Of a stretch of DNA of 64,000 nt, positions 6,314 to 24,283 are shown in pieces. The DNA is taken from NCBI GenBank assembly GCA_020848735.1, contig JADLHO010000118.1:1-64000 (forward strand), given 5' to 3'. The position numbers and the translations under genes are program-made. The notes under the pieces are model-generated. The model ran no database searches. It was not told where the DNA came from and worked only from the letters and a program-made list of their open reading frames with translations. Numbering within the stretch: position 1 is the first letter of the stretch; the number at the start of each line of letters is the position of its first letter. This stretch comes from Planctomycetota bacterium (GTDB taxonomy: Bacteria > Planctomycetota > UBA1135 > UBA2386).

Positions 6314-7246
6314 TCACTTCCCCACGGCCCACTGCTCGACGAAGCAGCTCACGTCGTAGCTCGTCATCCGATCGCCGCTGGCCTGCACACGGCGCAGCGC
6401 GTAGAGGCCCACGCCGGCGGCATCGAGGCGCAGGACGGTCGACTTGAGGTCCTGCGTGAGGACTTCGACCGTCGCCGTCGTCGCCAGGCCCTCGGTCTTG
6501 CCCTCGAGCAGAGTGGCCTTGGCCCAGTCGACGAAACCCGCAGCGCCGGCCTCGCCGACGCCGAGCGCGAGGTCGCCCACGCGCATGGTGATCTGCTCGC
6601 TGACCTTGCCCCGTCCGGTACCGACGCCGCTCGCCACCCCCTCGAACGCGACCGTGATCGGCGCGACCCGCGCGACGCGTGTGCAGTCGACGCCGGGGAT
6701 CGTGACGCGGAAGTTCGCCACGCCCGCGCGCTTCTGCCTGGCCACGCTCCCCGCGATCGAGTCGCCGGCCGTGCCGCTCGTCACGCGCTCCGGCTGGAAG
6801 CTCAGCGTGACGTCGAGCAGGTCCTTGCTCGACGCGTCGAGCGCGGGGAACTCGATCTTGACCAACTGCGCGCGTTGCGCGACCAGCCGATGCGCGACCT
6901 TCTGGTTGAGGTCGAGCTGGGCGATCGACACATCGAGGCGCGGTGGCTTGCCGGCGAGCGCATCGCGGATCCAGGGCAGGAAGTCCTCGAAGTCGCCGGT
7001 GACGACCAGGGGCTCGAAGCGCACCGCCCCGACCCGCTTCTTCGCCACGGCCTGCGGGCCGGTCGGCTGCACGATCACCTCGGCCACGGCGTCGCCGCCG
7101 CTCGCGCGGCGGAGCATGAAGACCTTGCCGCCGGCCTCGAGGGCGACGGCGCTCGGTGCGCCGATGCCGCCCTTCTGCGCCGCGATCGGCGTGACGGCGA
7201 GCGAGAGGGCGGCGAGGACGGCGACGACACGGTTCGCGATGGACAT
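6314..7246 (-). CDS. Secreted protein with two tail-tube (gp19-like) domains, last gene of the cytochrome locus
   Basis: The start is the ATG at 7246, preceded by AGGAG at good spacing. The 310-residue product has a clear Sec signal (MSIANRVVAVLAALSLAV, cut after PIAAQ). Two similar halves follow. Half one contains FLPWIRDALAGKPPRLDVSI and later FPALDASSKDLLDVTLSFQPE. Half two contains FVDWAKATLLEGKT and TATVEVLTQDLKSTVLRL, ending in YDVSCFVEQW. This pattern (W-helix, -GK-, antiparallel strands, L-DASS-x5-L) matches the T4 gp19-type tail-tube family of contractile injection systems. Here, however, it is duplicated and exported, and there are no sheath, baseplate or ATPase genes nearby. I infer an extracytoplasmic, perhaps polymer-forming protein linked to the cytochromes; the role is untested. 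Confidence 0.65.
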   Translation of the reverse strand: MSIANRVVAVLAALSLAVTPIAAQKGGIGAPSAVALEAGGKVFMLRRASGGDAVAEVIVQPTGPQAVAKKRVGAVRFEPLVVTGDFEDFLPWIRDALAGKPPRLDVSIAQLDLNQKVAHRLVAQRAQLVKIEFPALDASSKDLLDVTLSFQPERVTSGTAGDSIAGSVARQKRAGVANFRVTIPGVDCTRVARVAPITVAFEGVASGVGTGRGKVSEQITMRVGDLALGVGEAGAAGFVDWAKATLLEGKTEGLATTATVEVLTQDLKSTVLRLDAAGVGLYALRRVQASGDRMTSYDVSCFVEQWAVGK

Positions 7247-7309: not shown

Positions 7310-10090
<2,781 letters not shown>

Positions 10091-10266: not shown

Positions 10267-10920
10267 TCATCGCACCTGCGCCTGGCGCCAGTGCGTGGGG
10301 ATGTGGCAGCGGTCGCAGCGGTCGACCCAGCCGAGGCCGAGGTGCGGCGGATTCGCCGTGCGCTGCAGGTCGTCGAAGTGACAGGTGACGCACGCCGAGT
10401 CCGTCGGCACGAAGCGCCCCGCGAAGGACCCGGGGTGACAGCGGTTGCAGCTCGTGATCGCGTGCGCACCGGTCAGGGGGAAGCGACCGTGGGCGTGCGC
10501 GGCGACGAGGTCCTTCGGCCGCCACGTCGTCTCGCCGTGGCAGTCGTCGCAGGCGACGCCGAGGGTGCCCGCATGGACGTCCTCGTGACAGCCGACGCAA
10601 CCCCGGCTGCGGAACACCGCGACGGGCCCACGGTCGTTGTGACAGAGCAGGCAGCGCGCCGTGGCATGCGCGCCCGCGAGCGGCACGCCCGTCTGCGCGG
10701 CGTGGTCGAACGCGAAGTCGGCGACCAGCGTGTTCCAGTCGTCGCCGGCATGGCAGAGCCGGCAATCGGCGGGGAAGGTGTCGTGGGGCAGCACGGGGCC
10801 GAGTCCCGACCACCAGCGATAGCGCGCGACGGCATCGGGATCCTGCACGGCGCAGGAGCCGATGACCGCGAGCGTCATCGCGGAGAGGAGGAACAGGAGG
10901 GCACGGAGCGGAGTGCGCAT
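10267..10920 (-). CDS. Heptahaem (7 CxxCH) c-type cytochrome lipoprotein
   Basis: The 217-residue product has a hydrophobic signal LLFLLSAMTLAVIGSC ending in a lipobox cysteine. Seven haem-binding motifs follow: CRLCH, CLLCH, CVGCH, CDDCH, CNRCH, CVTCH and CDRCH. Spacing is short and regular, with FDHAAQTGVPLAGAHATARC and HGRFPLTGAHAITSC, the F-P-L-x-G-x-H-x(4)-C module shared with the 23-haem protein encoded upstream. This is the cytochrome c3/c7-like, doubled-CxxCH style. It is a lipid-anchored electron carrier, either on the periplasmic face beside the barrel or exposed outside. The gene starts 10 bp after the barrel gene ends, so it is part of the same operon. Confidence 0.92.
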   Translation of the reverse strand: MRTPLRALLFLLSAMTLAVIGSCAVQDPDAVARYRWWSGLGPVLPHDTFPADCRLCHAGDDWNTLVADFAFDHAAQTGVPLAGAHATARCLLCHNDRGPVAVFRSRGCVGCHEDVHAGTLGVACDDCHGETTWRPKDLVAAHAHGRFPLTGAHAITSCNRCHPGSFAGRFVPTDSACVTCHFDDLQRTANPPHLGLGWVDRCDRCHIPTHWRQAQVR

Positions 10921-10930
10921 GGAGGGTCCC

Positions 10931-12652
10931 TCAGAAGCTGCGCTGGACGAAGAATCCGACGCCGTAGGCGAAGTCGTCGTCCCAGAGGACGAGGTCGCCG
11001 TGGAAGGCGAGGTTCCAACCCGAGTCGAAGGCGAAGCTGCGGCTCGCGCGGAGACGGTGCTGCAGCAGGTCGTCGCCGTCCGGGGGCCGGCCCGCGAGGT
11101 GGTGGTTCGCGAACTCGTAGAGCAGGTCCCAACGGCCGTCGCTCACGCTGCGCCCGAGCTCGACGCGCACGCCGGCCACGGACGTGAACTCGCCGAGCGA
11201 GCCGAAGAGCACGAGGGCGAGCTCGTCGCCGTCGAGGAAGACGCTGCCGTAGCCCTTGCCGAGCTCGAGCGCGCCGCCGTGCTCACGCTCGTCGGCCCAG
11301 CCCGAGAGCTCCGCGCGCCAATGGTCGGTGCCGCGCGCCCCGCTGTGGCCGGCGAGCGCGACGCGATCGACGTGCTCGTCGTCGAGCTCCGCGGGCGTGC
11401 GGGGCTCGAACTCGCGCCGCAGCGTGAGCGGGAACGCGCGGCGCCGATAGCTGAACTCGTAGCCGGAGCCGTCGGTCTCGAAGCGCCGCACGGCGAGCCA
11501 GGCCTGCGTGAGTTCGAAGGTCTGGCCCTTCGCGTCGTCGCGCGATTGCAGGTAGGTGTCGAGCCATGCGCTCGCGCTGACGTCCCATCCCGGCTCGCCG
11601 ACCCAGCGCCCCTTCAGGACGAAGAGGTCGCGGTCCGCATCGGCGTGGTGGAACGTCTTCTGGTAGCCGACGTCGAAGCTCAGCGTCTCGGGACCGTCGG
11701 CAACCCAGCGGAACGACGCCGCGACCTGGAAGTCGTCGCCCGTCGAGAGCTCGTCGTCCTCGTTCGGCTGCCAGCCGATGCTCGCGGCGAGACGATGGCC
11801 GTCCTCGGTGCGATGGCCCCACTCGAGGCCGTCGACCCAACCGAACTCCGGCATCGCGTGCTGGAGGAAGCGACCGACCTGCCAGCGCGTGGGCGCGAAG
11901 CGCGTGCCGCCCTCGCGGTACGCCAGGGTGCGCAGGAGGAGACCGGTCGCGCGGTCGTCGTCGAAGTCCGCGCGGTGTGCCACCTCGAAGTCGAGCTCGA
12001 GCGTCTCCCCGCGACCGAGGGCGTTCTCGAAGCGCAGGTCGGTGCCGACGCGGAGCTGCGAGTTCGCGAAGGTCGAGCCCGCGTCGTCGGTCGCGCCGTG
12101 CACGAGACCGCCCGCCGACCAGATGCGGCCCATGAAGCGCGGTTCGCGCGCCGCCGGTTCGACCGGGCGCACCCTCGCGAGCAGGGGCATGCCCGGCTCC
12201 CAGCCATCGGCGCGCTCCGGCCAGGGCGGCGCCGGCGATGGCTGCGGCGGTGGCGGCGACGTCTCGCCGCGCGAAGGCGGGGTCGAGGGCGCAGGATCGG
12301 GCGGCGGTGCGAGCCGCCGGCGCGGGATCCGCGTCTCCCCGCGCGTGCCGGGTTCCGGCACGAACGCGGGCTCGTCGGGCTCGACGATCGCGCTGCGCTC
12401 GTCGACCTGGCGCACGGTGCCGGCGAACGCGCCGCCGCGCGCGGGCAGGAAGCTCACGCGGTCGCCGAGCTGCACGCCGTCGCGCGCACCGCGATCGATG
12501 CCGATCGCGCCGCGCACGGCGCTGGTCACGCGCAGCGGCAGGCGGAGCTCCGCGCCGTCCTGCGGTGTCGTCGCCGCGCTCGGAGCCTGGGCGATCGAGA
12601 CGGCCGACACGACCCCGAAGGTCGCCATGCACAGCGGCAGCAAGACGGTCAT
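10931..12652 (-). CDS. Outer-membrane beta-barrel protein of the cytochrome locus (MtrB/porin role)
   Basis: The ATG at 12652 overlaps the stop of the 23-haem gene (ATGA) and has GAGGAGAT upstream. The 573-residue product has a signal peptide (MTVLLPLCMATFGVVSAV). A small soluble domain of about 80 residues follows, with IGIDRGARDGVQLGDRVSFLP, then a proline-rich linker around residues 110-150. The last 400 residues are alternating amphipathic strands (for example LGRGETLELDFEVAHRADFDD) ending in FVQRSF. A C-terminal phenylalanine is the typical beta-barrel assembly signal. Position between a large periplasmic-type cytochrome and lipoprotein cytochromes suggests the porin of an outer-membrane electron conduit. 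I cannot align it to MtrB, PioB or OmbB by eye, so that role is inferred from context. Confidence 0.8.
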   Translation of the reverse strand: MTVLLPLCMATFGVVSAVSIAQAPSAATTPQDGAELRLPLRVTSAVRGAIGIDRGARDGVQLGDRVSFLPARGGAFAGTVRQVDERSAIVEPDEPAFVPEPGTRGETRIPRRRLAPPPDPAPSTPPSRGETSPPPPQPSPAPPWPERADGWEPGMPLLARVRPVEPAAREPRFMGRIWSAGGLVHGATDDAGSTFANSQLRVGTDLRFENALGRGETLELDFEVAHRADFDDDRATGLLLRTLAYREGGTRFAPTRWQVGRFLQHAMPEFGWVDGLEWGHRTEDGHRLAASIGWQPNEDDELSTGDDFQVAASFRWVADGPETLSFDVGYQKTFHHADADRDLFVLKGRWVGEPGWDVSASAWLDTYLQSRDDAKGQTFELTQAWLAVRRFETDGSGYEFSYRRRAFPLTLRREFEPRTPAELDDEHVDRVALAGHSGARGTDHWRAELSGWADEREHGGALELGKGYGSVFLDGDELALVLFGSLGEFTSVAGVRVELGRSVSDGRWDLLYEFANHHLAGRPPDGDDLLQHRLRASRSFAFDSGWNLAFHGDLVLWDDDFAYGVGFFVQRSF

Positions 12653-14718
12653 CGCGATCTCCTCTGCGCCCGCCGCAGCGGGTCGTCGTTCTTCCCGTGG
12701 CACGCCGCGCAGTCCGTCGGCAGGGGTCGCCAGCGCACGACCTCGTGCTCGCCGATGCGCTGAGGCTGGTGGCACTTCGCACACGCGACGCCGCGGTGCT
12801 GCTCGCCGAGCGCGAAGCGCGCATCGCGGTCGTGGTCGAAGATCAGCGCGCGGAAGGGGCCCGCGTCGTCGTGGCAGCGCGCGCACTCCGTGCGGCCCTC
12901 GGTCGTGAACTGACCCGCGTGCGGATCGGCGTGGCAGTCGGCACAGCGCGTACCGCGCGCCGGCTCCCAGGTCCGTCCGCGCGGATCGGGTTCGAGCCGC
13001 GTCGCATGACAGGCGGAGCAACGCGCGCGCGCGTGCGCGGAACGGAGTGCGAACCCCGTCCAGCGGCCGTGGTCGAAGGGCGTCTCGAAGTGCCGGAACG
13101 AGGTCTCGACGTGGCAGCGCGCGCAATCGCGGCGCCCGTCGAGCTCCGCCGGCAATCCCGGTCGGTCGAAGCCGCCGTCGTGGGGATCCACGTGGCAGGT
13201 GACGCAACCGCGGAAGGTGCCGAACTGCGCCGCGACGCGCCCGAAGCAGCGGCCCTGCGCGTCGGGTTCGGCCGCGCGCGGGTGACAGCTCTCGCAACCG
13301 GCGACGGCATGCGCGCCGCGGATCGGGAAGCGCACGTCGCGCGCGTGGTCGAAGCCGGGTTCGTGCAGCGCCGCGAAGCCGTGCGGCGCATGGCAGCGCG
13401 CGCAATCCGTCCGCCCATCCGCGTCGGCGAAGAAGGCCGCGTGGGCGTCGGCGTGGCAGTCCGCGCAGCTCGTGGAGAGACCCGCGAAGCGGCGCGGCGA
13501 AGCCGGCGTGTCCGACGTGCCCGGCGTGTCCGACGGATGGCACGCGTCGCACGCGGCCGACGCGTGACGGCCCTCGAGGGGCATCCTCGTGCGCGCGTGC
13601 TGTTCGACCGTGAAGCCGTGTGGGCGGAACTGCGTCCGCGCATGGCAGTCGACGCAGGTCGCCGTCGCGAACACGCCGCCCGCGAAGGCCCCGTCGTGCG
13701 GATCGCCGTGACAGGCGCGGCAGTCGTCCGGCGCGCGGTCGAGGTGGCGCTCGGCGAAGCCGCCGAGTTCGCCGCGGTGGCACGCATCGCACGCGACGCG
13801 ATCGTGCGGCACGCCGAGGGCGAACCCGCTCGCCGCGTGCTGCTCGGGCGCGATCGTCGCACGCCCGGCCCCGAAGGCCTCGTGCGCGACGTCGTGGCAC
13901 TGCACACAGGTCTGCGCTTGCTGCGTGCGCGCGAGCCCGGCCCAGGCCGCGAGGCTCGCCGCGCGGTGCGGCGAGTCGTGGCACGCGGCGCAGCTGCGCG
14001 CCGCGGGCGGGCGATGGGGCGCGAGGAGTTCGAGCGCGTGCGCGGTCCCGTCGGCGTGGCAGCCGCGACAGGTGACCGCGGCATGCCCGCCGCCGAGCGC
14101 GAGCACGCGTTCGTGGTCGAGCGCGCGCGGCGCCGCGAAGTCGCTCTGGTCGTGGCAGTCCGCACACGCGCGCTGCATGCGTCCGTCGTGCGGATCCTCG
14201 TGACAGCTCGCGCAGTCGCGCGCGAGTCCGAGGTAGCGCTGTTCACCGTCCGCGAGGACCGGCTTCTCCGCGTGGACGTGGCACTCCGCGCAGCTCAGCT
14301 CGAGGTGCTTGCCGGACATCTCCCAGCCGATCCGCGCGTGATCGAAGGCCGCGGGGTCGGGCACCGCGGCGAGCGCGAAGCTCGCCCGGTTCACGATCGC
14401 GAAGCCGGCGCCGTGGTGCTCGCTGTGACACGACGCGCACGCGGATCGCTGCTCCGCTGGGAGCGTGCCATGGAGGCCCGACCCGCGCTCGAACTGCGTC
14501 GCGATCGGCTCGTGACAGGCGAGGCACGCGTCCTTCATCGACGCGAACCATCCGCCATGGCATTGCGCGCAGTGATGACGCCCCTCGAGCTCCGCCACGG
14601 CGCCGTGGACGCTCGAGAGCGGCCCCGGCGACGTACGACCGATCGCCGCGAGCGCGAGCCAGCCGACGAGCAGCAGCGAGAGCGTGCCGACCCAGACGCG
14701 GGGATCGCGCAGCCTCAT
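12649..14718 (-). CDS. Giant multihaem c-type cytochrome with 23 CxxCH motifs
   Basis: The start is the ATG at 14718, overlapping the upstream gene's stop, giving 689 residues. A single N-terminal hydrophobic segment (WVGTLSLLLVGWLALAAI) has no lipobox or obvious cleavage site, so it is probably a membrane anchor facing the periplasm. I count 23 CxxCH motifs, about one per 29 residues. They fall into alternating modules. One type reads FDHxR..F.L..xHA..xCxxCH. The other reads CxxCHxDPHxGxF, seen as CASCHEDPHDGRM, CRACHGDPHDGAF, CVTCHVDPHDGGF and CADCHADPHAGQF. Such doubled modules belong to the cytochrome c3-like superfamily and can form long haem wires. It probably carries electrons across the periplasm between the membrane oxidoreductase encoded before it and the barrel encoded after it. 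Confidence 0.93.
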   Translation of the reverse strand: MRLRDPRVWVGTLSLLLVGWLALAAIGRTSPGPLSSVHGAVAELEGRHHCAQCHGGWFASMKDACLACHEPIATQFERGSGLHGTLPAEQRSACASCHSEHHGAGFAIVNRASFALAAVPDPAAFDHARIGWEMSGKHLELSCAECHVHAEKPVLADGEQRYLGLARDCASCHEDPHDGRMQRACADCHDQSDFAAPRALDHERVLALGGGHAAVTCRGCHADGTAHALELLAPHRPPAARSCAACHDSPHRAASLAAWAGLARTQQAQTCVQCHDVAHEAFGAGRATIAPEQHAASGFALGVPHDRVACDACHRGELGGFAERHLDRAPDDCRACHGDPHDGAFAGGVFATATCVDCHARTQFRPHGFTVEQHARTRMPLEGRHASAACDACHPSDTPGTSDTPASPRRFAGLSTSCADCHADAHAAFFADADGRTDCARCHAPHGFAALHEPGFDHARDVRFPIRGAHAVAGCESCHPRAAEPDAQGRCFGRVAAQFGTFRGCVTCHVDPHDGGFDRPGLPAELDGRRDCARCHVETSFRHFETPFDHGRWTGFALRSAHARARCSACHATRLEPDPRGRTWEPARGTRCADCHADPHAGQFTTEGRTECARCHDDAGPFRALIFDHDRDARFALGEQHRGVACAKCHQPQRIGEHEVVRWRPLPTDCAACHGKNDDPLRRAQRRSR

Positions 14719-16946
14719 GATCCACCTCGCTCGCCGAGCAGCGAGCCGTACGCGAGCGCGTAGCCGATGTGCACGACGATCAGCACGACCATCAGCAGCG
14801 CGAGCCAGCGATGGAGCCAGCGCCACGTGGAGAGGACCGCGCGCAGATCCTCGAGATGGCCGATCGCGATCGCCTCACGATGGGCCTCGCGCGCGAGTGC
14901 CAGGGCCACGCCGAGCTCCGCGGGCGGCACGGCGGCGGCGCGCGCCTCCGCGCGCAGGCGGCGCAACGCGCGACGCAGATCGAACTGCACGCCGGCGAAC
15001 GCCAGCAGCCGTCCGGCGAACGAGCCACGCCACTGCCGCGCCTCGGCGAGGCGGAGCACCTCGGCCCGCGCACGCGCCGCGAAGCCGTCGGCCGGACCGT
15101 CGAGCTTCGCGAGACGCGCGCGCACGTCGGCGAGAGCGAGCTCACGGCCGTTGGCCGCACGCGGCACCCACGCGTAGAGCCAACGGCCGATGCCGCCGGT
15201 CGCGACGATCACGAGCATCGCCCAGAACGCCTGACCGCCGGGCGTGTCGCGCGGCGCGAGCGCGGCGTGGAGCACGGCGCAGAGTCCGGCGAGCAGGCCG
15301 GTGGCGACGTGCACGGTCATCCACGTGCGCAGCGTTCCGAAGCGGAACGGTCGGCGCTGCGCGCGGCGCAGGAGATACGCGAGGTTCGCGATCACGAGCG
15401 CGGCGGCGGCGATGCCGAACGCGAGACCGAGACCGAGCCCCGGCCGCAGCAACGCGTGCTTGTCGTGCATCGGCCGCGCCTCGAGCGGCAGGCCGTAGTA
15501 GTCGAGGTTCGCGATCGCGAAGCCGAGCGCGAGCACGCCGGTGACGAGCGCGAACGCGAGCGCGGGCACCGCCGTGGCTCGCCGGTCCGCGGCAGGGGCG
15601 CCGCGGCGATCGGCGCGCGGCTGCGGTCGTCGCGCGGGATCGAACGACACGCCGGCCTGCTCGAGCAGGGGCTGCGACGGCACGCCGCCGATCATCACGA
15701 AGATCTCGTCGTTCTCGAGTTCGAGCTCACGCCCCTCGCCGAGCCTCAGCACGACGTGCTCGCGCGCGATCGCGCGGACCTCGCTGCCGAGCAGGAGCCG
15801 CACGGCTCCGGCCTCGACGGCCTCGCGCAGGCGCGCCGCGTTGCGCGAGCGCACGCGCACGAACGCGGTCTGGCGGTAGCTCAGGCTGACGGTGTGGCCC
15901 GGCTGCGCGGCGAGCGCGAGCGCGGTCTCGACCGCGGCGTCGCCGCCGCCGACGACGAGCACGCGGCGGCCGGTGAACGACGCGGCGTCGATCAACGCGT
16001 AGGCGACCTTCGGCAGGTCCTCGCCCGGCACGCCGAGGCGACGCGGCGTGCCGCGGCGTCCGACCGCCAGACAGACGTGGCGCGCGCGCCAGGTCCCACG
16101 CGACGTGCGGACGCTGCGCGAGCCGTCGTCGTGGACCAGAAGCCCCTCGACGGCGGCCCCGGTCTCGATCGGGAGGGCGTGCTCGCGCGCCGCGCGCTCC
16201 CAGATCGCGATCAGGTCCTCCTTCTCGTAGCTGCGCGCCGCGAGACGTCCGACCAGCGGGAGCTCGATCGGTTCGGTGAGGACGAGCTTGCGCCGCGGGT
16301 ACTTCGCGACGGTCCCACCGAGCTCGGTCTCCTGCTCGAGCACGACGTGCGGCACGCGGAGCCGGGTCGCCTCGAGCGCACAGGCGAGGCCCGCGGGACC
16401 CGCACCGAGGATCGCGAGCTCGACCTGGCCCGCCGGCAGCGGGCCGAGCGCGCGCCGACGCTCCGCCACCGCGCGCGCGACGCGCGTGCCGTGCTCGACC
16501 GCGGTGCGCACGAGCGCGTGCGCCGTCACCTCGCCCGCGAGATGGAGACCGGGTGCGCCGACTGCCGCGAGTTCCTCGTCGACGACGGGGATGTCCCGCC
16601 GCGTGGCGAGGTTCGCGATCGACACCGTGATGGCGCCGGCCGGACATTCGCGCTCGCACGCGGCGATGCCCTGGCAGCGCGCCCCGTTGACGACGAGCGC
16701 CTGGCCGTGCGCGATCTCGAGCACGCCCTGCTCCGGACACACCGCCACGCAGGTGGCACAGCCGAGGCAGCGCGAGAGATCGATGACGGGATGCTGCAAC
16801 CGCGCCGCCTCGTCACCCGCGGCCTGCGCGCGCTCGCGCTCGAGCAGCGTCTCGCGCATGCGGGCGAGGTCCGCGCGATGGAGCCAGGCGCCGACGAGCG
16901 CCAGGGCACAGACGACGACGAGGCCGACGAGGACGAGCCAGGTCAT
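14715..16946 (-). CDS. Ferredoxin / FAD-NAD(P) oxidoreductase fused to b-type membrane domain
   Basis: The start is the ATG at 16946 behind a perfect AGGAGG; the track's 1071-residue frame is an upstream extension. The 743-residue product has, in order, a TM anchor (3-21), a [4Fe-4S] motif CLGCATCVAVCP (60-71) and a second cluster region CQGIAACERECP lacking one of the usual cysteines. An FAD Rossmann motif GAGPAGLACA (about 181) and an NAD(P) motif VVGGGDAAVE (about 331) follow, in a YpdA/thioredoxin-reductase-like arrangement. Finally there are about five membrane helices with histidine pairs (H546 and H560, and two in HRWLALLMVVLIVVHIG). The ligand spacing suggests haem b. It likely couples cytoplasmic NAD(P)H or ferredoxin to quinone or periplasmic cytochrome, in either direction. 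It heads the multihaem operon. Confidence 0.85.
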   Translation of the reverse strand: MTWLVLVGLVVVCALALVGAWLHRADLARMRETLLERERAQAAGDEAARLQHPVIDLSRCLGCATCVAVCPEQGVLEIAHGQALVVNGARCQGIAACERECPAGAITVSIANLATRRDIPVVDEELAAVGAPGLHLAGEVTAHALVRTAVEHGTRVARAVAERRRALGPLPAGQVELAILGAGPAGLACALEATRLRVPHVVLEQETELGGTVAKYPRRKLVLTEPIELPLVGRLAARSYEKEDLIAIWERAAREHALPIETGAAVEGLLVHDDGSRSVRTSRGTWRARHVCLAVGRRGTPRRLGVPGEDLPKVAYALIDAASFTGRRVLVVGGGDAAVETALALAAQPGHTVSLSYRQTAFVRVRSRNAARLREAVEAGAVRLLLGSEVRAIAREHVVLRLGEGRELELENDEIFVMIGGVPSQPLLEQAGVSFDPARRPQPRADRRGAPAADRRATAVPALAFALVTGVLALGFAIANLDYYGLPLEARPMHDKHALLRPGLGLGLAFGIAAAALVIANLAYLLRRAQRRPFRFGTLRTWMTVHVATGLLAGLCAVLHAALAPRDTPGGQAFWAMLVIVATGGIGRWLYAWVPRAANGRELALADVRARLAKLDGPADGFAARARAEVLRLAEARQWRGSFAGRLLAFAGVQFDLRRALRRLRAEARAAAVPPAELGVALALAREAHREAIAIGHLEDLRAVLSTWRWLHRWLALLMVVLIVVHIGYALAYGSLLGERGGS

Positions 16947-17104: not shown

Positions 17105-17782
17105 TCAGCGCGCGGGCGTCGCGAGCGCCTCGTCGCCGCGGCGCGCCGCGACCTCGAGGTAGCCCTGCGCGGCGACGAGCGAGCGGCCGAGGCGGGCGTC
17201 GAGCCTGGCGACGCTGCCGTCGAGATTCGCGAGCTCCGTCTGGATCGTCGCGACCGAGGCGGAGTTGAAGTCGACGCTCAGGAACAGCAGCAGGTCGCGC
17301 ACGTCGCAGTTGAGCGCGTCGAACTCGTCCAGCGCGGGACGCAGGTTCGAGTCGATCGCCGTGTAGCGCTCGCGCGCGCGGCGGAGGCGGTCCTCGCTGC
17401 GGGCGCGCACGCTGGCGTTGCCGATCGCATCGACCTGCGCGGCCCATTGGTCGAAGACCGGCTGCGCGGCGATCTGCATCGCCGACACGCTCTCGCGGAG
17501 CTGGATCGCGTGCTGCCGCGAGGCCTCGGCCGCCGCGCTGACCGCGCGGTAGGACCCGGCCGCGTCGCCGCGGAAACCGGGCGCGGTGAGCGCGCGCAGC
17601 TCGCGGACCGCGGCGGCTGCCGCGTCGCGGGCGAGTTCGGTCTCGACGTGCACGCGCTCGACGCGCGAGACGAGGTCCTCGACCTTGGCGACGCCGGGAC
17701 GCGAGTCGCCGAACATCGCACAACTGGACAGCAGGACGGGCAGGACGGAGATCGCGAGTCGGATCGAGCGGCAGTGGTTCAT
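17105..17782 (-). CDS. DUF2959 family coiled-coil lipoprotein
   Basis: The 225-residue protein starts at the ATG at 17782 and has a signal ending VLPVLLSSC, a lipobox. The rest is helical and charged, with the family pattern RDAAAAAVRELRALTAP, VFDQWAAQVDAIGNASVR and LLFLSVDFNSASVATIQTELANLD. These match DUF2959, an uncharacterised family of periplasmic or outer-membrane lipoproteins with long coiled coils. It is on the same strand as the cytochrome operon and ends 158 bp before it, so co-transcription is possible but not shown. It is divergent from the amidohydrolase; the 190-bp gap between them should hold both promoters. Confidence 0.8.
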   Translation of the reverse strand: MNHCRSIRLAISVLPVLLSSCAMFGDSRPGVAKVEDLVSRVERVHVETELARDAAAAAVRELRALTAPGFRGDAAGSYRAVSAAAEASRQHAIQLRESVSAMQIAAQPVFDQWAAQVDAIGNASVRARSEDRLRRARERYTAIDSNLRPALDEFDALNCDVRDLLLFLSVDFNSASVATIQTELANLDGSVARLDARLGRSLVAAQGYLEVAARRGDEALATPAR

Positions 17783-17972
17783 CGTGAGCCGGACGTGCGT
17801 GGTGTTCCCAGACACCGATCACGCGCTGGATCGTCGGGTCGTCGCGAGGTGCTCCAGTCCGGCCCACGACCGCGCGCGGAGCGTCGCAGCCCGCGACGGA
17901 CGCTGCCGTTGGCATGGCGCGACGCGACATGTCCCGGGTTGCGTCAGGGGGCCGTGGCTAGGATCCCGCCCC

Positions 17973-19672: not shown

Positions 19673-20287
19673 ATGCAGCAGCCGAAGTGCACCCACTGCG
19701 GGAACGCGCGATGCAAGCACGGGGCGCCGGTCGTCCACGTGCTCGACGTCGCCGGCTGGGAGATCCACAAGCAGCAGTTCGTGTGCGAGGCCGTCGCGCA
19801 GCAGCTCGGCATCCTCGCGCCGAAGCAGGCGGGTCTCCCCTTCTCCGCCGAACTCCTCGAGAACCTGATCGGCGAGCTCAAGGGCGGTCATGCGCCCCAG
19901 GTGCCGGGAGCCGAGGCGCCCCGCACGCGGCCGAGCGAGACGATCTGTCCCGGCTGCCGGCTCACGCTCGGCGCCTTCAAGATGCGGGGCCGGGTCGGCT
20001 GCCCGCGCTGCTACGACACCTTCCGCGCGCACCTCGTGCCCCTGCTGGAGCGCGTCCACGACGCGACGGCCCACCGCGGTCGCTTCCCCGGGCGGCCTGC
20101 CAGGACGGCGCCCGACCCTGTCGATCTGACAGAGCTCCGCGAGCAGCTGCAGACCGCGATCGAGGAAGAGCGCTACGAACTCGCGGCCCGGCTGCGGGAC
20201 AAGCTGCGCAAGCTCGTCGGCGATCGCGACCCCCTCGGCCGCGAGCCGTTGCCGCCGCTGGACGAGCCCGGAGGCGCCGAGCCTTGA
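19673..20287 (+). CDS. mcsA: McsA, zinc-binding activator of protein-arginine kinase
   Basis: The 204-residue protein opens with a cysteine cluster CTHCGNARC, has a central CPGC and CPRC pair, and ends with a UVR motif (LREQLQTAIEEERYELAARL). That arrangement of zinc modules plus a C-terminal UvrB/UvrC-type helix pair is typical of McsA. McsA activates McsB and recruits substrates for ClpC in stress proteolysis. The middle segment KQAGLPFSAELLENLIGELKGG is like the linker in other non-Firmicute McsA proteins. Its TGA overlaps the TTG start of mcsB, indicating tight coupling. Confidence 0.88.
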   Translation: MQQPKCTHCGNARCKHGAPVVHVLDVAGWEIHKQQFVCEAVAQQLGILAPKQAGLPFSAELLENLIGELKGGHAPQVPGAEAPRTRPSETICPGCRLTLGAFKMRGRVGCPRCYDTFRAHLVPLLERVHDATAHRGRFPGRPARTAPDPVDLTELREQLQTAIEEERYELAARLRDKLRKLVGDRDPLGREPLPPLDEPGGAEP

Positions 20288-21360
20288 GCGAGCTGCCGAC
20301 GATCCCGTCCGACCTCTCGCTCGGGGAGTGGCTGCGGGGCACCGGTCCGGACGGCGACCTCGCGATCTGCACGCGGGTCCGCTTCGCGCGCAACCTGCTC
20401 GGCTACCGCTTCGCCAGCCTCCTCGACGCCGAGGAGTCGCGGGAGCTCAGCGCCTACCTGGTGCAGCAGGTCGGCCAGCTCGGTTTGCCCGAGCCGCTGC
20501 GGGTCGTCGAGCTCTCGACCTTGACCGAGCTCGAGCGCGAGGTCCTCGTCGAGCGGCACCTCATCAGCCGCGAACTCGCCGCCGCCGAGCGGCCGCGCGC
20601 CGCCGCGCACGACGACGCGGAACGCGTCGCGCTGATGTTCAACGAGGAGGATCACCTGCGGAGCCAGGTCTTCCGCTCCGGCTTCCAGGTCGACGAGGCC
20701 TACGCCGCCGCGGAGGATCTCGACGACCGCCTGATCTCGAGCCTGCCCGTCGCGTTCTCCGAGGAGTTCGGGTTCCTGACCTCCTGCCCGACCAACGTCG
20801 GCACCGGCCTGCGCCTCTCGGTGATGCTCCACCTGCCCGGACTGGTCTGGGCCGAGGACATGGAGAAGGCCGCCAACACCTGCCAGAAGATCCACCTCGC
20901 GGTGCGCGGGATGTACGGCGAGGGCAGCCGGGCGCTCGGCGACTTCTACCAGGTGAGCAATCAGGTCACGCTCGGCCGCAGCGAGACCTCGCTCGTCGAC
21001 GACGTGCGCGTCGCGGTGACCCAGCTCATCGCCTGGGAGCGCAAGGTGCGGGAGGCCCTGCTCGGCGGCGAGCGCCGGGCCCGGACCCTCGACCGGGTCT
21101 GGCGCGCGCTCGGCACGCTCCAGAGCGCGCGCATCCTCTCCACGGAGGAGTGCCTCAACGGGCTCTCGGCGGTGCGCTTCGGGGTGCAGCAGGGCCTGAT
21201 CGCCGACCTCCGCGCGGCCGACCTGAACCGCCTGCTCCTGCTGACCCAGCCCGCCCACCTGCAACGGCTGCACGGCGCCCCCCTCGACGCGGCCGAACGC
21301 GACACCCTGCGCGCGACGCTGGTCCGCTCGGTCCTCGCCGGCCGAGGGCAGGGTGCCTGA
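20284..21360 (+). CDS. mcsB: McsB protein-arginine kinase
   Basis: The start is taken as TTG at 20284 (MSELPTIPSDLSLGEWLRG), overlapping mcsA by four bases; the track's frame runs on upstream. The 358-residue enzyme belongs to the guanidino kinase family. It has the ATP-site arginine region CTRVRFARNLLGYRF, the central NEEDH, the catalytic-cysteine motif TSCPTNVGTGLR, and late VSNQVTLGRSE. McsB phosphorylates arginines on damaged proteins or regulators; the mark sends them to ClpCP. The neighbour ClpC supports this. No ctsR repressor gene is present in the window, unlike the Bacillus operon. Confidence 0.92.
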   Translation: MSELPTIPSDLSLGEWLRGTGPDGDLAICTRVRFARNLLGYRFASLLDAEESRELSAYLVQQVGQLGLPEPLRVVELSTLTELEREVLVERHLISRELAAAERPRAAAHDDAERVALMFNEEDHLRSQVFRSGFQVDEAYAAAEDLDDRLISSLPVAFSEEFGFLTSCPTNVGTGLRLSVMLHLPGLVWAEDMEKAANTCQKIHLAVRGMYGEGSRALGDFYQVSNQVTLGRSETSLVDDVRVAVTQLIAWERKVREALLGGERRARTLDRVWRALGTLQSARILSTEECLNGLSAVRFGVQQGLIADLRAADLNRLLLLTQPAHLQRLHGAPLDAAERDTLRATLVRSVLAGRGQGA

Positions 21361-21742
21361 GCGCCGCCGCGGGAGCTTCCCGTCCTGGATCGGAGAAGCT
21401 CGCGTGACGCGGAGCCCAGAGCGTCGTAGGAACGGGACTTGCTGAAACCGGGCGCCCCGACGAGGACGATGGTTCCACGCGCGGCGTCATGCTGCCGCCG
21501 CCTCTGGTCGACAAGGACCAGGGACCGGCAGCGGATGCCCACGGACCGAACCCAGACTCGTCGAGACCAAGCCCCGGGAACCCGAGCCCAGACGGTTCGG
21601 GCCCCGGCAGCCCATCTCTCTCGAGACGTGCCCGGCCTGAGTGCAGGCCGGTTCGAGCCAACGCAGACCACGCCCCCCGGAACCGGGAGAACCCAAACGC
21701 TCGCATGAGCCTCCCGGCTCTCGCCACACCAAGGACTCGGGA
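21361..21742. other. Gap of 382 bp before clpC; no gene supported, one hairpin
   Basis: No frame here looks coding: the ORFs offered have poor codon patterns. The stretch is rich in CCGGGAACCC/CCGAACCCAG-like runs. The one structure I see is a perfect 7-bp hairpin, CCGGCCT-gagtgc-AGGCCGG (21632-21651), about 90 bp upstream of the clpC start and without a following T run. This is probably the 5' leader and promoter region of clpC. No CtsR-type direct heptad operator was recognised. Confidence 0.5.

Positions 21743-24283
<2,541 letters not shown>

Follow-up and report, generated by a model that had tools for sequence, protein, structure and literature searches.

The 64,000-nucleotide stretch of Planctomycetota DNA analyzed here (assembly GCA_020848735.1, contig JADLHO010000118.1, positions 1 to 64,000; hereafter the window) encodes a 23-haem cytochrome, MHC23, that is probably, by analogy with the PCC3 porin-cytochrome systems, the periplasmic wire of a trans-envelope electron conduit in a Planctomycetota variant. 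This reading draws on a three-haem repeat that runs along the chain, on homologues whose haem counts differ by whole repeats, on conserved candidate distal histidines for nearly all haems, and on a conserved operon that places the cytochrome gene between a membrane reductase and a predicted outer-membrane barrel.

A Three-haem Repeat in MHC23

The MHC23 gene lies on the minus strand, with its ATG at 14718 and its stop codon ending at 12649, and overlaps both neighboring genes through ATGA-type junctions. The 689-residue open reading frame contains exactly 23 CxxCH motifs, which bears out the 23-haem cytochrome recognized at this position in a preliminary description of the DNA. The motifs are spaced by 15–49 residues, with a mean of 30 residues per haem, and the Pfam Cytochrome_C7 family matched the chain in nine stretches (1.6e-28). 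Full-length homologues with the same haem count exist, and all 23 motifs were invariant in an alignment of 46 homologues (35–53% identity). Given this invariance and the result of the permutation experiment below, the motif pattern is not due to chance.

To describe the internal periodicity, segments around each haem were compared after masking the two Cys and the His of each motif, and the order of haems was permuted 20,000 times. The mean score at a lag of three haems was +0.6, compared with −16.4 ± 3.4 for permuted orders, and none of the 20,000 permutations scored as high (p ∼5e-5). Similarity was also observed at lags of 6, 9, and 12, and not at lags of 1, 2, 4, or 5. Thus, periodicity extends beyond the CxxCH motifs themselves. 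The layout is one haem, seven tri-haem units, and one haem (1 + 7×3 + 1), with three classes of haem site: class A, FDH...FxLxGxHA...CxxCH; class B, CxxCHxDPHxGxF; and class C, xCARCHxxxxF. The preliminary description had envisaged two alternating modules, FDH...GxHA...CxxCH and CxxCHxDPHxGxF, derived by duplication of a c3-like unit. Both patterns were found, but the class C site, which always lies between them, had been missed; two alternating modules were rejected because the period is three haems. For the same reason, a four-haem (tetrahaem) c3-like repeat was rejected in favor of a c7-like three-haem unit, while the idea that a small cytochrome unit was duplicated internally is supported. 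The relevant features are as follows.

12649 to 14718, minus strand: 23-haem cytochrome (MHC23), 689 residues, 23 CxxCH motifs; helix, seven tri-haem units, and one haem at each end
14641 to 14703, minus strand: predicted N-terminal hydrophobic helix of MHC23, residues 6–26 (AlphaFold2 (AF2) model 6–26; hydropathy peak 8–26; alignment)
14041 to 14223, minus strand: tri-haem unit, haems 5–7, order B-C-A (periodicity, alignment)
13762 to 14001, minus strand: tri-haem unit, haems 8–10
13522 to 13731, minus strand: tri-haem unit, haems 11–13
13267 to 13476, minus strand: tri-haem unit, haems 14–16; the extra units of 26- and 29-haem homologues align just after it
12991 to 13215, minus strand: tri-haem unit, haems 17–19
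12754 to 12954, minus strand: tri-haem unit, haems 20–22

Between species, units that occupy the same position share 49% identity, compared with 37–39% for units at different positions. Since same-position units are more alike than units within one protein, most of the duplication predates the spread of the MHC23 family.

Haem Counts Change in Whole Units

A set of 76 complete homologues was assembled from named genome records, representing about 75 genomes. Of these, 74 carry 20, 23, 26, or 29 motifs, all of which obey the rule 3n+2. The two exceptions are a protein in which one motif reads CIACL instead of CxxCH (L054) and a frame split into 18 + 5 (L123). Because the genomes are related, the tally does not represent 76 independent events; nevertheless, four sizes were observed and none intermediate. 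In the alignment, the extra whole units of the 26- and 29-haem homologues are inserted between haems 16 and 17, and whole units gained or lost afterwards account for the four haem counts. Given that the chain is made of three-haem units, its length evolves in three-haem steps.

Conserved Distal Histidines

Apart from the histidines of the CxxCH motifs, 21 histidines are invariant in all 46 aligned homologues, and H550, H102, and H458 are conserved in 98, 85, and 72%, respectively. The 23 positions expected for distal histidines comprise 21 that are invariant, one at 98%, and one at 72%. When a second, overlapping set of 21 sequences was compared, each of the 23 positions expected to supply a ligand was either invariant or >90% conserved. 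Each complete unit has the ligand order haem-His-haem-His-His-haem. The 22–23 conserved extra histidines fit one distal histidine per haem.

This arrangement can be compared with that of Geobacter GSU1996, a periplasmic chain of tri-haem domains with one Met-ligated haem in each, which has been discussed as a capacitor (PMC10138318). Like MHC23, the dodecahaem GSU1996 (PDB 3OV0) has c7-type tri-haem domains arranged in tandem along a single periplasmic chain, and a profile of the MHC23 alignment gave a weak match to 3OV0 (1.2e-9) that was in phase with the repeat. Unlike MHC23, GSU1996 has 12 haems, including a His-Met haem in each domain, the methionine of which (e.g. M287) precedes the second CxxCH of the unit. 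In MHC23, the third distal histidine instead lies four residues after that CxxCH (CxxCHxDPH); the best-conserved methionine, M61 (78%), is outside the six complete units. A strict GSU1996-type domain was therefore rejected for MHC23, which has no conserved methionine and 22–23 distal histidines in its place.

The Conserved Operon

The genes around MHC23 are listed below, with barrel, helix and lipoprotein assignments being predictions.

14715 to 16946, minus strand: inner-membrane reductase, 743 residues; N-terminal helix, ferredoxin-like iron-sulfur (FeS) domain, FAD/NAD(P) domain (Pyr_redox_3), and C-terminal di-haem-b membrane domain (Pfam)
15267 to 15323, minus strand: first WX3HX13H motif, reductase residues 542–560, proposed haem-b ligands
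14769 to 14825, minus strand: second WX3HX13H motif, reductase residues 708–726, proposed haem-b ligands
10931 to 12652, minus strand: predicted outer-membrane β-barrel, 573 residues; 22 predicted strands (residues 172–572), N-terminal β-domain, C-terminal Phe
10267 to 10920, minus strand: 7-haem lipoprotein of the tri-haem unit type (3m+1 family); lipobox-like N-terminus; matched by the unit hidden Markov model (HMM)
7310 to 10090, minus strand: 11-haem lipoprotein cytochrome; NCBIfam ExtM match of 71 bits; tri-haem unit HMM at the shuffle level
17105 to 17815, minus strand: DUF2959 lipoprotein (Pfam, 2e-21); upstream partner in many of the loci that have a 7-haem protein

The conserved order is the FeS/FAD/NAD(P) reductase with its di-haem-b domain, the 23-haem wire, the 22-strand barrel, and the 7-haem lipoprotein. 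The reductase gene, the stop codon of which overlaps the MHC23 start (ATGA), is directly upstream of the wire in 66 of 68 homologous loci. Both WX3HX13H motifs were present in all 66 reductase homologues, with an invariant GxxG (of [ST]GxxG) between them that reads TGGIG in the window. The barrel gene, the start of which overlaps the MHC23 stop, is downstream of the wire in 69 of 71 loci. An AF2 model of the barrel (pLDDT 78.7, pTM 0.67) matched generic outer-membrane barrels in Foldseek. Another contig of the same genome carries a second, diverged copy of the module (L009, G000:C40:28900-36300) composed of a reductase, a 26-haem cytochrome, a barrel, and a 19-haem cytochrome.

The gene at 6314–7246 was rejected as part of the operon, having zero relatives in the homologous loci. 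It lies on the minus strand and encodes a secreted protein with a borderline match to the T4-like phage tail tube protein gp19 (28.3 bits, cut-off 28.2), beside the cytochrome operon and away from any phage genes seen. Elsewhere in the window, at 19673–24283 on the plus strand, three genes in a row resemble those for McsA, McsB (protein arginine kinase), and ClpC. This gene set is best known from Bacillota.

The Seven-haem Partner and Its Family

The tri-haem unit HMM scored 83 bits on the 7-haem protein, whereas 100 shuffles that preserved CxxCH reached at most 27 bits; the 11-haem neighbor was at the shuffle level. The proposal in the preliminary description that the smaller cytochrome shares the MHC23 unit is thus upheld, but simple derivation from MHC23 is not, as the 7-haem protein belongs to a parallel family encoded behind the barrel. 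Across loci, cytochromes in this position have 7 to 43 haems, and 61 of 68 follow 3m+1. The largest, with 43 haems, is encoded at L095:13193-16429; others have 37 (L108), 34 (L085), 31 (L122), and 28 (L077) haems.

By a masked class score, the 7-haem-type family has the register C-A-B-C..., with 66% agreement (27 and 7% for the other registers), and 68 of 71 members start with class C; the 11-haem control showed no clear register. A wire ending in B and a partner starting in C might together continue the A-B-C register. This is offered only as a lead because the partner family shows poor separation of classes B and C and both end haems of the wire are often scored C. A bolder scheme, which we regard as tentative, is a length-quantized pipeline from NAD(P)H to the exterior encoded by a single operon in Planctomycetota, Kiritimatiellota, Acidobacteriota, and Bacteroidota. 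Here, a cytoplasmic reductase would feed a tethered tri-haem wire, the number of units would set periplasmic reach, and the outer cytochrome would continue the register (3n+2 plus 3m+1 = 3k), such that the ends of the two might meet within the barrel and together make up one tri-haem unit spanning the interface.

Distribution across Phyla

A scan of genome contigs placed most MHC23 homologues in Planctomycetota; the few others came from Kiritimatiellales, an Acidobacteriota metagenome-assembled genome (MAG), and Saprospiraceae. A plasmid search returned an MHC23 homologue only in Emticicia. Plasmid pEMTOL02 of Emticicia oligotrophica (L129) encodes CcsA, a membrane protein, an NAD(P)-binding FeS/FAD protein, a 23-haem cytochrome, a 40-haem cytochrome, and a barrel-sized hypothetical protein. 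This cultured Bacteroidota isolate therefore has the whole module on a plasmid, together with its own CcsA-like cytochrome maturation gene.

Loci from Bacteroidota and Kiritimatiellales contain a separate membrane-protein frame of 281–499 residues that carries the WX3HX13H pair together with SGxxGR or TGxxGR; in the Acidobacteriota locus this frame is further off. The fusion seen in Planctomycetota evidently links the membrane-protein and FeS/FAD genes functionally. On plasmids of Alteromonas macleodii (L131) and Methylophaga pinxianii (L130), the gene for a relative of the membrane protein is flanked by genes for a 2Fe-2S protein and a small cytochrome; on the Alteromonas plasmid, hydrogenase genes follow.

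Comparison with Known Conduits

The inner-membrane protein of PCC3 and PCC4 contains two WX3HX13H motifs (helices 3 and 5) and an SGXXG motif (helix 4), and two haems b have been proposed for it (He et al. 2017, PMC5566968). The periplasmic cytochromes of PCC3 carry 21, 24, or 27 haems and have been suggested to be long enough to span the periplasm (Gallionellaceae pangenome 2023, PMC10734462). The operon described here resembles PCC3, by gene content and motifs, in its barrel gene, its huge, presumably periplasmic cytochrome (20, 23, 26, or 29 haems here), its second large cytochrome of variable size, and its inner-membrane protein with two WX3HX13H motifs and an SGXXG-type motif. The 30 residues per haem of MHC23 fall within the PCC3 range of 22–39. 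In contrast to PCC3, the Planctomycetota version joins the membrane protein to FeS and FAD/NAD(P) domains in one chain, and its large cytochrome probably has a membrane anchor. Earlier work has mentioned PCC clusters from Planctomycetota MAGs (PMC10732223; PMC13264449), and a ferredoxin-NADP reductase gene lies beside some porin-cytochrome clusters (PMC13264449). In the open-access literature, no description was found of the tri-haem unit, the 3n+2 rule, the reductase fusion, or the Planctomycetota cluster as such.

Proposed Electron Path and Alternatives

In the proposed path, electrons from cytoplasmic NAD(P)H or ferredoxin would enter the FeS and FAD domains of the upstream reductase, the soluble half of which is placed in the cytoplasm because a charged segment follows its first helix. 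They would then cross to the periplasmic face via the two haems b of the membrane domain and enter MHC23 at its N-terminal end, held at the inner membrane by the helix. Hopping along 23 bis-histidine haems, if these are stacked in order, would carry them to the C-terminal end of MHC23 at the 22-strand outer-membrane barrel, where the 7-haem lipoprotein, probably together with the 11-haem one, may exchange electrons with an outside partner. Judged from domains only, the conduit is probably linked directly to NAD(P)H. Outward flow is preferred, although the path would be reversible in principle: a ferric-reductase-type domain architecture favors outward flow, and wires of this kind are reversible. 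The length of the ten-haem MtrA has been quoted as roughly 100 Å; scaled from this value, an estimated reach of about 200 Å for 23 haems would be of the order of a periplasm.

The preliminary description had inferred a tethered chain that could span the periplasm from an N-terminal helix without a cleavage site. The helix is supported by hydropathy and by the model, and a conserved R-x-S-P-G-P-x-S-x-V-H segment follows it in the alignment; the lack of a cleavage site is only partly correct, since the window protein has an A22-L23-A24 triplet, although strict AxA occurs in 12 of 73 homologues and the remaining 61 have the hydrophobic helix without AxA. An inner-membrane tether with a periplasm-spanning role is plausible.

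Several observations weigh against a PCC3-like wire. The A22-L23-A24 triplet is a possible AxA cleavage site and the N-terminus of the Emticicia homologue is signal-peptide-like (SYAQ); hence, anchoring might not hold throughout the family. With 22 predicted strands, the barrel has fewer than MtrB and than the larger PCC3 porins, which reach up to 42; no match to MtrB was found among the top 50 Foldseek hits of the barrel model. The extracellular cytochrome of PCC3 has 10–85 haems, compared with 7 in the window and 10–43 in paralogous loci. In the AF2 model of MHC23, local quality is good (pLDDT 80), whereas global quality is poor (pTM 0.39). A Foldseek search of this model against the PDB returned zero matches, a result that is uninformative because, when modeled without haem, such proteins show little regular fold. 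Relatives of the di-haem-b membrane protein on the Methylophaga and Alteromonas plasmids lie beside a small cytochrome with no annotated porin, and related membrane proteins occur without any porin (PMC5566968); given these plasmid relatives, the presence of the di-haem-b membrane protein is by itself not enough to identify a conduit.

An alternative role for MHC23 is that of an electron store, a free periplasmic haem pool that buffers electrons without forming a fixed bridge. The discussion of GSU1996 as a capacitor, the weak profile match to 3OV0, and the AxA site and signal-peptide-like Emticicia N-terminus, which would permit a soluble protein, all point this way. We nevertheless consider a store unlikely: it would need no fixed neighbors, whereas in about 70 loci MHC23 is strictly encoded together with a membrane reductase and an outer-membrane barrel, and the helix without AxA is conserved in most homologues.

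It is similarly improbable that MHC23 is mostly threaded through the barrel in the manner of MtrA, with other soluble carriers bridging the periplasm. MtrCAB, MtoAB, and PioAB do share with this operon the pairing of a periplasmic multihaem cytochrome and an outer-membrane barrel as a conduit, the barrel gene is directly downstream of MHC23, and the NCBIfam DmsE/MtrA family (TIGR03508) matched at 8e-14. However, the score of 51.7 bits is far below the cut-off of 192.2, and membership of this decahaem family was rejected for a 23-haem protein; MtrA and MtoA have 10 haems each, 20–29 haems are more than one membrane crossing needs, and the N-terminal helix is conserved.

A dedicated extracytoplasmic reductase or oxidase component acting on one particular soluble nitrogen, sulfur, or metalloid compound is very improbable: the 11-haem neighbor, and not the wire, distantly resembles ExtM of the selenite/tellurite operon (NCBIfam NF040943, 5.9e-20), but its membership was rejected at 71 bits against a cut-off of 800, less than a tenth, Pfam and NCBIfam scans returned none of the known terminal reductase families among the operon proteins, and MHC23 has no obvious catalytic haem because nearly all of its haems have two conserved histidines.

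Significance

Research on extracellular electron transfer has yet to settle whether a single protein spans the entire periplasm. The MHC23 family bears on this question in that the length of the wire changes in whole three-haem steps among otherwise matching operons, which makes the relationship between wire length and periplasm width directly testable. Complete genomes of named isolates carry the system (Planctomycetes bacterium Pla86, Poly30, and Pla163). PCC3-like conduits, described in Proteobacteria in the literature found, would thereby extend to at least four other phyla, and this system suggests that a direct NAD(P)H link may take the place of a quinone link.

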